Below are positions 44,508 through 54,126 of a DNA stretch of 64,000 nucleotides, piece by piece. How positions within the stretch are numbered: position 1 is the first letter of the stretch; each line of letters begins with the position of its first letter. A model generated the notes under the pieces. It worked only from the letters and a program-made list of their open reading frames with translations, made no database searches and had not been told where the DNA came from. Both the position numbers and the translations under genes were made by a program. The DNA lies in contig CALSNJ010000002.1 of the NCBI GenBank assembly GCA_943787745.1, positions 248,001 through 312,000 on the forward strand. Direction: 5' to 3'. Source of the stretch: an uncultured Alphaproteobacteria bacterium (GTDB lineage Bacteria; Pseudomonadota; Alphaproteobacteria; UBA6615).

Positions 44508-45346
44508 TGGAACTCGCGCTCGAGCCCTTTGCCTACAACTACATGGTCAAAGCTATCTGGGTGAGCGCCCTTGTTGGTGGGGTCTGCGCCTTCCTGTCTG
44601 CCTATCTGATGCTGAAAGGCTGGTCGCTAATGGGGGATGCGCTGGCACATTCGATCGTGCCCGGTGTCGTGTTGTCCTATGCACTGGCATTGCCCTTTGC
44701 GATCGGTGCGTTCTTTGCGGGTATGCTGGCGGCGCTGAGCATGGCCATCGTCAAACAGCGAACACGATTGCGCGAAGATGCTGTCATCGGTCTGATTTTC
44801 ACCGCTTTCTTTGCAGCCGGGCTGCTCATGGTGTCCATCAACCCGACAGCCGTCAGCATACAAGCCATTATCTTCGGGAACATTCTGGCGATCTCGGATC
44901 AGGACATAAATCAGGTCGTCATTATTTCCGTCGTCTGCCTGATCGTATTGTGTGTGAAGTGGAAAGACCTGATGGCGGTCTTCTTTGATGAGAACCATGC
45001 ACGCAGCATTGGTCTTCGCGTGACCGCATTGAAGGTTTTGTTCTTCACACTTCTGAGCGCTGCCTGTGTCGCCGCGCTCCAGACGGTGGGGGCCATTCTG
45101 GTGATCGCCATGGTCGTGACACCCGGGGCGACAGCATATTTGCTTACGGACAAGTTCGACCGGCTGATTGTGATTGCTGTTTTGTTGGGAAGTGTGACCA
45201 GTGGCGTCGGTGCCTATGCGAGCTTTTTTCTGGATGCCAATCCCGGGGGGCTCATTGTCACGCTGCAAACGTTGATTTTCCTTAGCGTGTTTCTGTTCGC
45301 TCCCAAATATGGTTTTTTCAAAAGACGGGCAGCGGCCAATGGATAG
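44504..45346 (+). CDS. mntC: manganese ABC transporter permease, first subunit
   Basis: ABC-3 type integral membrane permease (ZnuB/SitC-like), about eight helices in 280 aa. It has the family segments [27 protein letters not shown] near residues 25-52, [20 protein letters not shown] near 87-106, and [21 protein letters not shown] near 190-211. An ATG doublet (44504 and 44507) leaves the exact start open. Both permeases show the same arrangement, so they are paralogues. Confidence 0.95.
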
Positions 45347-46187
45347 CCTGCTGTCATTCGTCGCCGAACCACTGGCATACGGGTTTATGCAACGTGCGTT
45401 GCTCATGTCGGTGCTGATCGCCGTTGTGTGCTCGATCTTCTCCTGTTTCCTCATTTTGAAGGGCTGGTCCCTGATGGGGGATGCCGTCTCACACGCCGTG
45501 TTGCCGGGGCTTGCTGTCGCCGTTGTGATCGGTATTCCGCTGGCGATCGGAGCGCTGATCGCGGGATTGTTCTGCGCCGTTGCGACCGGCTACATCAAGG
45601 AGAACAGCCGGGTCAAAGAAGACGCGGTCATGGGAATCATGTTCTCGGGCATGTTCGCGCTGGGGCTGGTGCTTCTGACGAAGATCGAAACAGACATACA
45701 TCTGCTGCATGTGTTGTTCGGGAGTGTGCTGGGCATCACAAACGCAGATCTGATCGAGGCTGGCAGTATCGCCATTCTGTGTTCCGCGATCATGCTGATC
45801 AAACGCAAGGATCTGATGCTCTATTGCTTTGACCCGGCGCATGCGAGCGTTATTGGTTTGCCGGTCAGATTGCTGCATTTCGGTCTGTTGATCCTTCTGG
45901 CTCTGACAATCGTTTCGTCCCTCAAGGCCGCGGGCATTGTGCTTGTGATTGCCATGTTGATCGCGCCGGGCGCGATCGGATTTATACTGGTGCGCTCCTT
46001 TGATAGAATGCTGATGATCGCTTTATCCGTGTCTGTTTTTTCCTGCATTGTCGGCACGATTGTGAGCTTCCATCTGGATGCTGCTACGGCACCGCTGATT
46101 GTAGTGATCCAGGCATGTTTTTTCGTACTCGCTATGATCTTCGGAAAACGCCGCGATACGGCAAAAGGATTGCTCAATGCCACCTAA
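45339..46187 (+). CDS. mntD: manganese ABC transporter permease, second subunit
   Basis: Second ABC-3 type permease, 282 aa, paralogous to the upstream one: [47 protein letters not shown] and AAGIVLVIAMLIAPGAIGFIL appear at corresponding positions. The ATG at 45339 starts [16 protein letters not shown] and overlaps the previous gene by 8 nt; a longer in-frame start inside mntC is rejected because its arm has no family match. The two permeases are probably a heterodimer. Confidence 0.94.
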   Translation: MDSLLSFVAEPLAYGFMQRALLMSVLIAVVCSIFSCFLILKGWSLMGDAVSHAVLPGLAVAVVIGIPLAIGALIAGLFCAVATGYIKENSRVKEDAVMGIMFSGMFALGLVLLTKIETDIHLLHVLFGSVLGITNADLIEAGSIAILCSAIMLIKRKDLMLYCFDPAHASVIGLPVRLLHFGLLILLALTIVSSLKAAGIVLVIAMLIAPGAIGFILVRSFDRMLMIALSVSVFSCIVGTIVSFHLDAATAPLIVVIQACFFVLAMIFGKRRDTAKGLLNAT

Positions 46188-46623
46188 AGCGCGGAAGAAA
46201 GCAGATCTGACCCTCGCGGATCCCAAAATACAGGCCAGCTGGTTTGCGCGCGTTCGCAGCGCACGTCAGACGGAAACAACAGAGGATTATGTTGAGCTCA
46301 TTGCAGACCTGATTGAGGTCCAGCAGGAGGCGCGCGCGAGCGACCTTGCCGCCCGGCTGGGCGTGTCGGCGCCGACCGTAAGCAATGCGGTCTCGCGGCT
46401 GCAGGATGAGGGCTATATCGAAAGCAAACCCTATCGTTCGATCTTCCTGACCGAGAAGGGCCGCAAGCTGGCGCGCAAGTGCAAGGAGCGTCACCAGATT
46501 ATACTGGAATTTCTCATTCGCTTGGGGGTCGATCCGGAAACAGCGGAGTTCGATGCCGAAGGGATCGAGCACCATATCAGCGAACAAACGCTCCAGCTGA
46601 TGAAGGAATTTGGTGGAAAGTAA
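46177..46623 (+). CDS. mntR: manganese-responsive transcriptional regulator MntR (DtxR family)
   Basis: Mn(II)-dependent repressor of manganese import. The wHTH covers about residues 35-85 (ARASDLAARLGVSAPTVSNAVSRLQDEGYI with SKPYRSIFLTEKGRKLA), and the dimerisation/metal half has KERHQIILEFLIRLGVD and EGIEHHISEQT. At 148 aa it is the short DtxR form lacking an SH3 domain. It overlaps the last permease by 11 nt, so it is repressed together with the transporter. A DtxR-like palindrome lies at the operon promoter (42654-42669). Confidence 0.94.
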   Translation: MPPKARKKADLTLADPKIQASWFARVRSARQTETTEDYVELIADLIEVQQEARASDLAARLGVSAPTVSNAVSRLQDEGYIESKPYRSIFLTEKGRKLARKCKERHQIILEFLIRLGVDPETAEFDAEGIEHHISEQTLQLMKEFGGK

Positions 46624-50553: not shown

Positions 50554-50636
50554 CGTTTCTCGCTTAAGCCATCATTAACCCGCCGGTGTGAATATCATCG
50601 GCAGGAATTGCGCGCGAAATGCAGGAGACGCAGGCA

Positions 50637-51122
50637 ATGAAGCAAACATATCTTTCCACCATCGTTCTACTGGAACGGATGCATCGTCAGTTTCTTGAGG
50701 TGATCAAATCCGAACTGGAAGCACACGATATCCGTGACATCAACAACGTGCAGTCGTTGATCCTCTACAATATCGGTGGCGATGAGCTGACCGTCGGGGA
50801 ATTGACCTTGCGGGGCTATTATTTGGGCTCGAACGTGTCCTACAACGTGAAGAAGATGACTGAACACGGTTACCTCCATCAGGAGCGTTCATCTCATGAT
50901 CGTCGGTCAGTGCGTGTGCGCCTGACAGAAAAAGGGCTGGAGCTCAGCCGATTGCTTGAAACCATGTTCGAGCGCCATGTCGAGACGATCGCGGACAATA
51001 TCGACGAAGAGAAACTGGACGAAGCCAACGCTGCTTTGCGCGACGTGGAGAGGTTCTGGTTGCAGCAGCTTGGATTTGGCCCGCGTGTCGCCGAATTTTT
51101 TCGGGTCGAAACAGCCGCCTGA
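50637..51122 (+). CDS. ldtR: MarR-family transcriptional regulator LdtR
   Basis: Winged-helix regulator of the LdtR group, known in Liberibacter and rhizobia to control L,D-transpeptidase and stress genes. The first helices are LSTIVLLERMHRQFLEVIKSELEAHDIRDINNVQSLILYNIG in the region of residues 6-47, and the recognition helix is YYLGSNVSYNVKKMTEHGYL, then wing RSSHDRRSVRVRLTEKG. The ATG at 50637 is used because AGGAG lies about 10 nt upstream; an earlier in-frame ATG at 50619 has none. At 161 aa it is normal. Single gene with a terminator 36 nt later. Confidence 0.92.
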   Translation: MKQTYLSTIVLLERMHRQFLEVIKSELEAHDIRDINNVQSLILYNIGGDELTVGELTLRGYYLGSNVSYNVKKMTEHGYLHQERSSHDRRSVRVRLTEKGLELSRLLETMFERHVETIADNIDEEKLDEANAALRDVERFWLQQLGFGPRVAEFFRVETAA

Positions 51123-51157
51123 TACCTCTGCGGCTTTCATCTCCTGCGGAATACAGA

Positions 51158-51183
51158 AAGGGCGGCCTTGGGCCGCCCTTTTG
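51158..51183. terminator. terminator between ldtR and rpoH
   Basis: An 8-bp GC stem gggcggcc/ggccgccc with a 3-nt loop is flanked by AAA on one side and TTTT on the other. It stands between convergent genes and can serve both. Confidence 0.88.
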
Positions 51184-51207
51184 CTATTTAATACTGTCAC
51201 TGGCGGG

Positions 51208-52101
51208 TTAGACGACCAGATCGTTATCGAGAATGGCTTTGGCGTCGTCGCCATGCACAGCCATCGCAACTTTCAGCTTGTCGAGGGCCTTGGCCTCAAT
51301 CTGGCGAATGCGCTCCTTGCTGACCCCAAAACTCTCCCCAATGTCTGAAAGCGTATTCTTTTCTTCGCTCAGGAACCTTTGGACAATGATCTCGCGCTCG
51401 CGCTCGTTGAGGGTTTCCAGCGCATCCTCTACCCAGCCTGAACGAACCCGGCCGTCATGGTGGGAAGCGGTGATGTCTTCGGGGTTTGGGCCGTCATCAG
51501 GAAGGGCATCCTGAAATTCGAAATCATCGTCCTCACCATAGCTGGCATTGAGCGAATTATCCGGGCCACCGAGATGGGCCTCCATGCGCATGACGTCCTT
51601 GATTTTGACCTGGAGACGATCGGCGACCAGTTCGCGGTCGGCATCGGTCAATTCACCGTCCACTCCTGTGGCAATCTGGGCACGGACTTTGCGCAGGTTG
51701 AAGAACAGGCGCCGTTGTGCCGGCGTTGTTGCGACGCGCACGATGGAGGTGTTGCGCAGGATGTAGTCCTGTATTGCTGCCATGATCCACCAGGAGGCGT
51801 AAGTGGAGAAACGGGCATTGTGGGTCGTCTCGAACCGCTGGGCGGCTTCCATCAGGCCGATATTGCCTTCCTGGACCAGATCGCCGACCGGCAAACCGTA
51901 TCCCCGGAATTTCCACGCCATCTTGAGGACGTAACGGGCGTAGGCTTCGATCAGTTTGTGAAGCGCAGCTTCATCCTCCTCTTCACGCCAGAGGCGTGCG
52001 AGTTCGAATTCTTCCTCACGTTCAAGAATAGGGGCCTTCATGACGCGACTGGCGTAGCGACGGTTTCCCTGTTCGATAGCTTGTGATGCGAAAGCAGCCA
52101 T
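51208..52101 (-). CDS. rpoH: RNA polymerase sigma factor RpoH (sigma-32)
   Basis: Heat-shock sigma factor. Region 2 contains YVLKMAWKFRGYGLPVGDLVQEGNIGLMEAAQRFE and ARFSTYASWWIMAAIQDYIL, with the RpoH box QRRLFFNLRKVR in between region 2 and 3. Region 4.2 is NTLSDIGESFGVSKERIRQIEAKA. The ATG at 52101 (MAAFASQAIEQGNRRYA) is preceded by aaggaa and gives 297 aa; the longer frame is antisense promoter DNA. The upstream 200-nt region is shared with a divergent MarR gene and contains a repeated palindrome. Confidence 0.97.
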   Translation of the reverse strand: MAAFASQAIEQGNRRYASRVMKAPILEREEEFELARLWREEEDEAALHKLIEAYARYVLKMAWKFRGYGLPVGDLVQEGNIGLMEAAQRFETTHNARFSTYASWWIMAAIQDYILRNTSIVRVATTPAQRRLFFNLRKVRAQIATGVDGELTDADRELVADRLQVKIKDVMRMEAHLGGPDNSLNASYGEDDDFEFQDALPDDGPNPEDITASHHDGRVRSGWVEDALETLNEREREIIVQRFLSEEKNTLSDIGESFGVSKERIRQIEAKALDKLKVAMAVHGDDAKAILDNDLVV

Positions 52102-52171
52102 AATGTTGCATTCCTTTGACAAATCACCGTCAGGGTCTATATCGGAGCCATGGTCGGTGATTGTTTTGGTT

Positions 52172-52183
52172 TCGACTCGATAC
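52172..52183. repeat. 12-bp repeat, copy 1, upstream of rpoH
   Basis: tcgactcgatac occurs here and again at 52226-52237, same orientation, start to start 54 nt. It lies about 70 nt upstream of the rpoH start codon, in the gap between rpoH and the divergent MarR gene. Confidence 0.6.
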
Positions 52184-52223
52184 GAATAGAATATACGCTC
52201 GATCGGGTTCGCCAACAAGTCTA

Positions 52224-52237
52224 TATCGACTCGATAC
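52224..52237. promoter_or_regulatory. palindromic operator candidate (repeat copy 2)
   Basis: tatcga-c-tcgata is a perfect 13-bp palindrome (52224-52236) that includes copy 2 of the 12-bp repeat. It is 65 nt from the MarR start codon and 123 nt from the rpoH start. MarR-family binding is plausible but not shown. Confidence 0.5.
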
Positions 52238-52301
52238 TATCCATATGATCCAAAATAGATGCCAAAATCAGTGGATTATATAGTTTAGAAAAGAAGAGAG
52301 C

Positions 52302-52892
52302 ATGGGTTCGCAAGTTACTGATAATGCAGGCAAAGAGAGCCTTTCACGGCTCCTCGACCGTATCGGTCGGATGGCACGTGGTCTGCAGTATTGTCATGGC
52401 TTGAACCCGGCCCAGTGGGACAGTTTGCGGTTTGTCGCGCAGGCGAATCGCTTTTCACGGACGCCTGGTGCTCTCGCAATATTCCTTGGAACCACCAAAG
52501 GGACCGCCAGTCAGACTCTCAATGCGCTGGAGAAAAAGGGTTATCTGACCCGAGTTCCAGACCCCGACGACAAACGGGTCAAGCACATCGAGTTGACGCA
52601 AGCTGGCGCGGAATTGCTCGCCGAAGACCCGCTCAATTGCCTGGATGTCGCGATTGAAAGGCTACCGGCCGCAGTTGTGGACACCATGGCCAAGGGCCTT
52701 GGCGAACTCTGCGCAAACATGCAGGCGCGGTGTGGCGGTCAGGATATGGGAATCTGCACGTCGTGCGGTCATTTTCAGGGGGCCACCGATGACGGCAATA
52801 TGCGTTGCGGTTACAAGCAGGCGGATTTGTCCTGTGAAGACGCCAAACGCGTGTGCATCAACTTCGATCCGCTGGCGGTTAAAGACTGCTAA
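52302..52892 (+). CDS. MarR-family regulator with C-terminal cysteine cluster
   Basis: Winged-helix protein of MarR type, 196 aa. The helices and wHTH (about residues 40-105) include NPAQWDSLRFVAQANRFS, LAIFLGTTKGTASQTLNALEKKGYL and wing DPDDKRVKHIELTQAG. Beyond the normal MarR length (about 140 aa) comes a Cys-rich segment: Cys152 and Cys155 (CTSC), Cys169 (MRCGY), Cys178 (LSCED), Cys185 (VCINF), with further Cys at 144 and 196. The spacing suggests a Zn or Fe-S site and thus metal or redox sensing. Divergent from rpoH, with the repeated palindrome between them. Confidence 0.87.
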   Translation: MGSQVTDNAGKESLSRLLDRIGRMARGLQYCHGLNPAQWDSLRFVAQANRFSRTPGALAIFLGTTKGTASQTLNALEKKGYLTRVPDPDDKRVKHIELTQAGAELLAEDPLNCLDVAIERLPAAVVDTMAKGLGELCANMQARCGGQDMGICTSCGHFQGATDDGNMRCGYKQADLSCEDAKRVCINFDPLAVKDC

Positions 52893-52902
52893 CGCAGCCG
52901 TA

Positions 52903-54126
52903 TCAGGCTCCGGTGAACGACTGAATCCCTGTTTGGGCGCGCCCCAGGATCAGCGCATGAATGTCATGTGTGCCCTCGTAGGTGTTCACCGATTCCAGAT
53001 TCATCACATGCCGTATGACGTGGTACTCGTCCGAGATACCATTTCCGCCATGCATATCGCGCGCAACCCGGGCGATGTCGAGCGACTTGCCCGCGTTGTT
53101 CCGCTTCAGAAGTGAGATCATCTCCGGTGTGGATTTGTCCGCATCCATCAGACGACCCAGCTGCAGGCAGGAATGCAGGCCCAGCGTAATTTCGGTCTGC
53201 ATATCCGCCAGTTTCTTCTGGATCAGCTGATTGGCTGCCAGGGGGCGTCCGAACTGCTTGCGCTCCATGGTGTACTCGCGCGCGGCATGCCAGCAGAACT
53301 CTGCCGCACCCAGTGCGCCCCAGGAAATGCCGTAGCGCGCCTTGTTTAGGCAGCCAAATGGTCCTCCGAGACCGCGCGCATTGGGCAACTGGTTCTCCGC
53401 GGGCACGAAGACGTCGTCCATTGCAATTTCGCCGGTTGATGAGGCCCGCAGTGAGAATTTGCCTTCGATCTTGGGGGTGGAAATACCGTCCATGCCACGT
53501 TCGAGGATGAAGCCCCGAATGACGCCCTCGTCATCCTTGGCCCAGACAACGAAGACATCAGCGATCGGCGCGTTGGAAATCCACATCTTCGCGCCGTTTA
53601 GCAGGAAACCACCGTCGACGGATTTCGCACGGGTCACCATGCTTCCGGGGTCAGAGCCGTGATCGGGCTCGGTCAGGCCAAAAGCGCCAACCCATTCGCC
53701 GGTCGCAAGCTTGGGCAGGTACTTCATCCGCTGGTCTTCCGAGCCGTAAGCGTAAATCGGCCACATAACCAGAGAGGATTGCACCGAAAGTGCGGAGCGA
53801 TAGCCCGAGTCCACGCGTTCCACCTCACGCGCGATCAGTCCGTAACAGACATTGTTCACGCCAGCGCAACCGTACTTTTCCGGCAGGGTTGAGCCCAGCA
53901 GGCCAAGCTCCCCGAGTTCATTCATGATCTCGCGATGAAACACCTCGTTGCGATTGGCTTCGAGGACCCGGGGCATCAGCTTTTCCTGGGCATAAGCCTG
54001 CGCCGTGTCGCGCACCATCCGCTCCTCTTCGGTGAGCAATTCTTCTAGCAACAGCGGGTCTTCCCATTTGAAACGGGCTTTTTCGGCAGATTTTCCGGTG
54101 CCGGTGGATTCCGAAGCGAGACTCAT
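52903..54126 (-). CDS. gcdH: glutaryl-CoA dehydrogenase (acyl-CoA dehydrogenase)
   Basis: FAD enzyme that oxidises and decarboxylates glutaryl-CoA to crotonyl-CoA in lysine/tryptophan breakdown. The GCDH type is indicated by the catalytic Glu context [16 protein letters not shown], the Arg-containing [43 protein letters not shown] region and the WISNAPIAD segment. The ATG at 54126 (MSLASESTG) has GGAG 9 nt upstream; earlier in-frame ATG and GTG codons do not. At 407 aa it is normal. Its 3' end is 10 nt from the convergent MarR gene. Confidence 0.95.

Follow-up and report, generated by a model that had tools for sequence, protein, structure and literature searches.

The MarR family comprises winged-helix regulators for which the binding of small ligands is classical. 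The AdcR and ZitR regulators are metal-dependent members that bind zinc in the core of the protein, and the sensing cysteine of OhrR-type regulators is located in the core as well. Among the upstream inputs of RpoH2-type sigma factors, which are common in Alphaproteobacteria, the best studied is the RpoE–ChrR system, which feeds oxidative stress into RpoHII of Rhodobacter sphaeroides. The RpoH2 paralogue of this organism serves singlet-oxygen stress and the RpoHII regulon includes a glutathione-dependent reduction system (PMC3441632). ArnR of corynebacteria is a winged helix–turn–helix (wHTH) regulator with a cysteine-based C-terminal sensory domain; it is reported to carry three conserved cysteines (179, 193 and 223), to bind a [4Fe-4S] cluster and to lose DNA binding with NO (PMC12343034). 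MarR proteins that sense sulfane sulfur have also been reported (PMC11211675).

The locus described here lies in a 64,000-nucleotide stretch of genomic DNA (the window) of an uncultured alphaproteobacterium and consists of a MarR-family gene and a divergent gene for sigma-32 (Table 1). With the MarR family the encoded protein shares the winged-helix core, palindromes beside its own gene and a divergent likely target, and it differs from that family by an extra C-terminal four-cysteine module. By analogy its working principle resembles that of ArnR, a comparison that draws on the description of ArnR and sets its three cysteines against four with a CxxC pair, whereas by family the protein is a MarR regulator. 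The likeness to RpoE–ChrR lies in the proposed oxidative-stress input to an RpoH2 paralogue; RpoE–ChrR is an ECF sigma/anti-sigma pair, whereas here a divergent MarR gene adjoins rpoH2. We lean slightly towards the view that the protein represses both rpoH2 and its own gene, with a four-cysteine metal centre that would sense oxidants, electrophiles, NO or metal status. More tentatively, and with a little less than even confidence, we propose an undescribed proteobacterial MarR subfamily with a C-terminal metal-centre sensor (Fe–S or redox-labile zinc) which would control thiol-redox operons via TAKCGASTCGMTA and may have been recruited to the divergent rpoH2 in one alphaproteobacterial lineage. 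Among the matches listed for the open-licence literature (titles and the beginnings of abstracts) we found no description of the MarR protein, its tail or the rpoH pairing, nor were the operator letters found in that literature; the family is apparently uncharacterised.

Table 1. Features of the marR–rpoH2 locus, in window coordinates
Feature	Position	Strand	Remarks
RpoH2-type sigma-32	51208..52101	-	likely start ATG 52101; mechanical ORF begins TTG 52218
Promoter-like TTTGAC-N16-CTATAT towards marR	52115..52142	+	hexamers conserved, spacer less; not in the standard scan's list
Candidate operator 1, TTTCGACTCGATA	52170..52182	.	one mismatch to palindrome TATCGASTCGATA; aligned in close homologues
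Promoter-like CTTGTT-N17-GTATAT towards rpoH, between the operators	52191..52219	-	inferred, analyst-chosen pattern; not in the standard scan's list
Candidate operator 2, perfect palindrome TATCGACTCGATA	52224..52236	.	54 bp from operator 1; aligned in close homologues
Promoter-like TTGGCA-N18-GATAGT towards rpoH, alternative	52236..52265	-	the standard scan's only one
MarR-family regulator P0001 with C-terminal 4-Cys module	52302..52892	+	196 aa, ATG start; Pfam match, full-length AlphaFold2 model
C-terminal 4-Cys module, residues 144-191	52731..52874	+	invariant Cys in 22/22 rows; pLDDT 90-92 blocks
Invariant Cys codons	C152 52755-52757, C155 52764-52766, C169 52806-52808, C185 52854-52856	+	A1 alignment

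The MarR protein matches MarR_2 (PF12802, 52.7 bits against a cut-off of 27) and PF01047 (41.7 bits, cut-off 24.6). Its full-length AlphaFold2 model (mean pLDDT 89.1, pTM 0.80) has the MarR winged-helix fold, the best VIA-align match being MepR (Z 13.8, rmsd 4.9, 136 residues); the aligned rows span residues 1–153, mainly 1–145, and both Foldseek and VIA-align are uninformative on the tail. None of the profiles tested for named metal or redox types of MarR protein fits, and in the NCBIfam search no MarR equivalog reaches its cut-off and no named type is assigned. The AdcR-type zinc profile NF038251 (cut-off 175 bits) gives no match at E up to 0.1, which distinguishes the protein from AdcR and ZitR despite the shared fold, and scores of 21.5, 17.8 and 19 bits with the relatives L118, L142 and L127, respectively. 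The OhrR equivalog NF052638, a model of vibrio OhrR, reaches 20.2 bits against a cut-off of 200, and the Pfam family Rrf2, which covers the Rrf2/IscR Fe–S regulators, finds no match at E up to 0.1.

The sequence-only reading had pointed to five cysteines clustered behind a normal MarR core (152, 155, 169, 178 and 185, spaced CxxC-x13-C-x8-C-x6-C) as suggestive of a zinc or Fe–S site. Their positions are correct, and five others (31, 113, 137, 144 and 196) bring the total to ten. In alignment A1, which contains the window protein and 21 of the 24 loci from a whole-protein search of the genome collection (L003, L016 and L020 were dropped as near-copies), C152, C155, C169 and C185 are cysteine in all 22 rows at identities down to 35%, one of the six search peptides behind these loci, NMRCGYKQ, falling within the tail. 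Each of the other positions is cysteine in a part of the rows (C178 in 10, C31 in 9, C113 in 13, C137 in 11, C144 in 10 and C196 in 8), and the MarR core is without any invariant cysteine, in contrast to OhrR and other cysteine-sensing MarR regulators with which the proposed redox sensing by cysteines is shared. A five-cysteine site is rejected since C178 is lineage-specific; the tail nevertheless retains its metal-site-like character, with four invariant cysteines as ligand candidates and a confidently predicted small beta fold. Judged from the alignments, the cluster is not a product of chance and has a four-cysteine core.

Across a set of 79 tails (A3) the module follows the pattern CxxC-x(9-22)-C-x15-C. 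The rows of A3 were picked by the four-cysteine pattern and its four invariant columns are therefore given by construction; also absent from it are L131, whose fourth cysteine lies in another frame, and L001, L008, L009, L012 and L140. All 79 tails have x15 as the last spacing, though the selecting pattern permitted 14–16, and the loop between C155 and C169 ranges from 9 to 22 residues. In the full-length model residues 151–190 fall in pLDDT blocks of 90–92 and comprise short strands, a short helix and the last cysteine, while the 48-residue tail predicted alone gives a poor model (pLDDT 57). Because the cysteines are invariant, the x15 spacing is constant and the full-length model is confident, we regard the tail, as modelled, as an ordered four-cysteine module. 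Searches of Pfam, NCBIfam and PDB sequences found no family that covers it above the cut-off: the 79 tails yield weak and scattered Pfam matches only (best E 0.0035), and the best E-values of the PDB profile searches are 0.83 and 1.3.

These matches below the cut-off are mostly to zinc ribbons (Zn_ribbon_LapB in 4 of the 79 members, DZR_2 in 3 and HscB_4_cys in 1), and loops of variable length, such as that between C155 and C169, are common in many structural zinc folds. Both points favour a purely structural zinc that would stiffen the C-terminal end, with a small ligand in the MarR pocket as the signal and rpoH2 and the regulator itself still repressed. We consider this rather unlikely, given that one weak match each goes to Fer2 and BssC_TutF, the latter of which we take to be an Fe–S family like the former, and that thiol-redox genes stand beside many of the relatives without rpoH (see below), with no set of genes that would indicate one ligand.

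The sequence-only reading had also called for a search for other MarR proteins with the same tail. Such proteins were found in number, and the tail is no one-off addition. With tail profile A2 it was detected in at least 40 of the 289 alphaproteobacterial genomes sampled and in at least 26 of 397 genomes sampled across the phylum, of which 12 lie outside the class; the per-genome counts are lower bounds, as part of the candidates was scored, and 60 of the 62 new tail places were fetched (not those of G461 and G559). A tblastn search with a member from Shinella matched 144 of 72,556 plasmid records, mostly from Phaeobacter and Enterobacter, 135 of which cover at least 80% of the query, and members from Agarilytica and Enterobacter (gamma) and Polaromonas (beta) carry the four cysteines (five regions read of the 144 plasmid records). 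At the loci read, nearly every tail forms the end of a MarR ORF. The exceptions are L099, a four-cysteine tail remnant with no MarR core in frame, and L105, in which serine replaces the fourth cysteine and the MarR frame continues into a transporter-like ORF. Judged from the sequences, the tail thus marks a broad subfamily of MarR proteins in alphaproteobacterial genomes and on beta- and gammaproteobacterial plasmids. A search for relatives yielded 22 MarR places, 19 of which reach the tail; since the three others, which are more distant (L167, L168 and L169, one in G034 and two in G058; 38–49% identity in the core) end without it, the tail is, on this comparison, a separable module that can be gained or lost. 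These three genes offer a natural comparison for the contribution of the tail.

The genes beside those relatives that lack rpoH bear on what the centre might be. Neighbours were counted as blast clusters across 89 loci, near-copies included, and the cluster representatives were scanned with profiles. An AhpC/TSA-like protein with a CPGC motif stands beside relatives at 17 of the 89 loci, a 76-aa glutaredoxin-like protein at 11, DUF2024 at 6 and a MOSC protein, so annotated in two plasmids, in a cluster of 4. Glutaredoxin-like, DUF2024 and Rof (Rho modulator) genes are divergent from the four-cysteine MarR gene in L158 (a plasmid of Enterobacter sp. 638), L142, L144 and L146; L158 holds a perfect TATCGACTCGATA between the divergent genes, and the operator pattern described below is absent from the other three. 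A protoglobin gene is divergent in L019 and in L096 (Agarilytica). In L117 the gene for the Fe–S scaffold Nfu follows downstream of the relative together with DUF6522, in a blast cluster of five loci of which L117 is the one scanned. A protein of about 246 aa that looks exported is found near the four-cysteine MarR genes at 24 of the 89 loci (e.g. L147, L014, L018, L022 and L118); the one representative scanned has no Pfam or NCBIfam match, and the survey singles it out as a frequent neighbour. The recurring theme is thiol redox, perhaps NO or Fe–S, and some neighbours do not fit it. The glutathione-dependent reduction system in the RpoHII regulon of R. sphaeroides (PMC3441632) is in keeping with this theme.

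The four cysteines are likely to hold a metal. As to which, the Pfam leanings are mostly towards zinc ribbons while the Nfu and protoglobin neighbours lean towards Fe–S. A [4Fe-4S] or [2Fe-2S] cluster that senses O2, NO or Fe–S status, much as ArnR or IscR does in principle, could be accommodated by four cysteines with such spacing, and ArnR provides the precedent of a wHTH protein with an NO-responsive cluster. It is a possibility to which we give less than even weight, if somewhat more than to the structural zinc, because no known Fe–S domain is matched above the cut-off in the Pfam and PDB sequence searches and the five Nfu/DUF6522 loci are confined to one subclade. Alternatively, the cysteines might act without metal as a thiol switch that forms a disulfide, a persulfide or an adduct with a low-molecular-weight thiol. 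OhrR and the MarR proteins that sense sulfane sulfur would be the models, and both the latter precedent and the thiol-redox neighbours agree with this reading; we judge it improbable, as four invariant cysteines in a compact C-terminal fold, with none in the MarR core, resemble a metal site more closely than a one- or two-cysteine switch. A redox or metal signal is proposed for the preferred metal centre because of the thiol-redox genes beside the non-rpoH relatives and the established function of RpoH2; we regard a redox signal as an evenly balanced proposition.

The sequence-only reading had placed the MarR gene divergent from rpoH and had suggested that it could link redox or metal status to the heat-shock sigma factor. 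The arrangement is borne out: the neighbour on the minus strand exceeds the cut-off of the RpoH model NF005693 (PRK07500; 332.5 bits against 315) and falls short of that of TIGR02392 (285.4 against 323.1), which makes it RpoH2-type by a rule of our own under which some RpoH1 genes also pass NF005693. The link to rpoH gains from synteny across a whole clade and from two conserved palindromes, and the label needs to be narrowed to an RpoH2-type factor. A gene for rpoH is divergent from a four-cysteine marR at 34 loci among the 89, namely L017 and the 33 of the blast cluster. In a tree of 84 MarR rows, which leaves out L003, L016, L020, L099, L105 and L140, 33 rows including that of the window form one clade (SH-aLRT 99) whose members are all rpoH-linked, and the label changes twice on the tree compared with a mean of 26.7 after shuffling; L155 is rpoH-linked outside the clade, with an RpoH1-type gene. 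In 22 of the 23 partner genomes examined, the gene linked to marR is of the RpoH2 type (254–297 bits on TIGR02392), and 21 of these 22 also hold a separate RpoH1 of at least 358 bits, above the TIGR02392 cut-off, G264 having a fragment only. The pairing is a minority arrangement: it occurs in 22 of the 289 genomes of the class, 131 of which encode an RpoH that exceeds the cut-off of NF005693, RpoH1 genes among them, and the majority of genomes with an RpoH2-type gene do without this partner.

The pairing might reflect a shared ancestry of the neighbourhood with no regulation at all. Other neighbours are indeed syntenic, namely an LdtR-like gene at 14 loci and an acyl-CoA dehydrogenase in close relatives; rpoH, however, is divergent across the whole clade whereas these are kept at fewer of its loci, and palindromes lie between the two genes at 30 of the 33 rpoH-linked loci examined (L017 counted), which makes an accident of ancestry very improbable. 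The LdtR-like gene is a second MarR gene (window positions 50619–51122, plus strand, convergent with rpoH; 186 bits, cut-off 250), and its 14 loci near rpoH are counted among the 89. In the genome to which the window belongs (G000, 97.9% complete) no RpoH1-type gene was found, nor any sigma-32 other than the MarR-paired RpoH; RpoH1 exceeds the cut-off in four of the six same-genus genomes searched, G000 among the six. The missing RpoH1 is either an assembly gap or a real loss.

The region between marR and rpoH contains two copies of the 13-bp palindrome TATCGA-S-TCGATA. Many close homologues show the same pair at comparable distances, and variants (e.g. TAGCGAGTCGCTA) occur upstream of distant ones. 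Scanning with the pattern T[AT][TGA]CGA[CG]TCG[ACT][AT]A covered the 89 loci less L003, L016, L020, L099 and L105. In the derivation set 18 of 21 loci have sites, with 29 in 7,140 bp of upstream sequence and 0 in 196,977 bp elsewhere; of the 63 independent loci 30 have sites, the upstream 21,420 bp containing 40 and the remaining 590,313 bp 2, and the reversed control gives 0 upstream. We consider it very likely from these counts that the palindromes are the operators of the MarR protein. As the pattern is absent from 33 of the 63 independent loci, the operators, on this evidence, drift or differ in many relatives; the rpoH-linked loci L107, L121 and L155 also lack it. Within its own 3.27-Mb assembly TWTCGASTCGATA occurs solely at the two intergenic places, and the palindrome with up to two mismatches is found at 31 places compared with 21 for the reversed control. 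Because this form is found nowhere else and the looser matches are close to the control, the regulator looks, from the genome sequence, local and dedicated. A wider regulon in this genome was considered and set aside: apart from the intergenic pair and a single-mismatch site there is little sign of further targets. The latter site, TATCGAGTCGGTA (L160, G000:C2:1505572-1505584), is close to the start of a membrane-protein-like ORF and to an enoyl-ACP-reductase-like gene, each so classified by eye.

Two promoter readings towards rpoH can be drawn relative to these candidate operators. Operator 1 would cover the start site of the CTTGTT-N17-GTATAT element, and the start site of the alternative TTGGCA-N18-GATAGT element would fall in operator 2; since an operator covers the start site in either reading, the layout would suit repression. 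The standard promoter scan found 1 element compared with 0.5 expected in shuffles. L002 lacks the −10-like part along with most of the sequence that separates the operators. The element that faces marR overlaps the ribosome-binding region of rpoH, and its conservation is therefore ambiguous. An Rfam search of positions 51000–54000 gave nothing at the gathering threshold.

The protein very likely regulates its own gene and the adjoining sigma-factor gene. Put together, the mechanism that we slightly favour would run as follows. A dimeric MarR-type repressor would bind the two 13-bp palindromes in the promoter region that marR and the divergent rpoH2 have in common and thereby repress both genes. 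C152, C155, C169 and C185 would hold one metal centre, either zinc or an Fe–S cluster; oxidants, electrophiles, NO or the loss of the metal would alter this centre and with it the dimer; the operators would then be freed, RpoH2 would be made and its stress regulon switched on. An activator rather than a repressor role is possible. If the scheme is true, a metal-centre switch would directly gate an alternative heat-shock sigma factor, and such a direct and conserved wiring of a metal-centre MarR protein to RpoH2 would come as a surprise to the specialist: a clade-wide, metal-centre-like MarR regulator with a candidate operator would constitute a second, simple input into this type of sigma factor. 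The candidate operator and the tail profile also provide a target set for many genes that are annotated just as ‘MarR family regulator’.

Elsewhere in the window, about 6 kb from the MarR gene, positions 45309–46623 encode a DtxR/MntR-like regulator (PF01325, PF02742), whose gene overlaps the end of an ORF that by eye resembles a membrane permease; this is possibly a metal-uptake locus.
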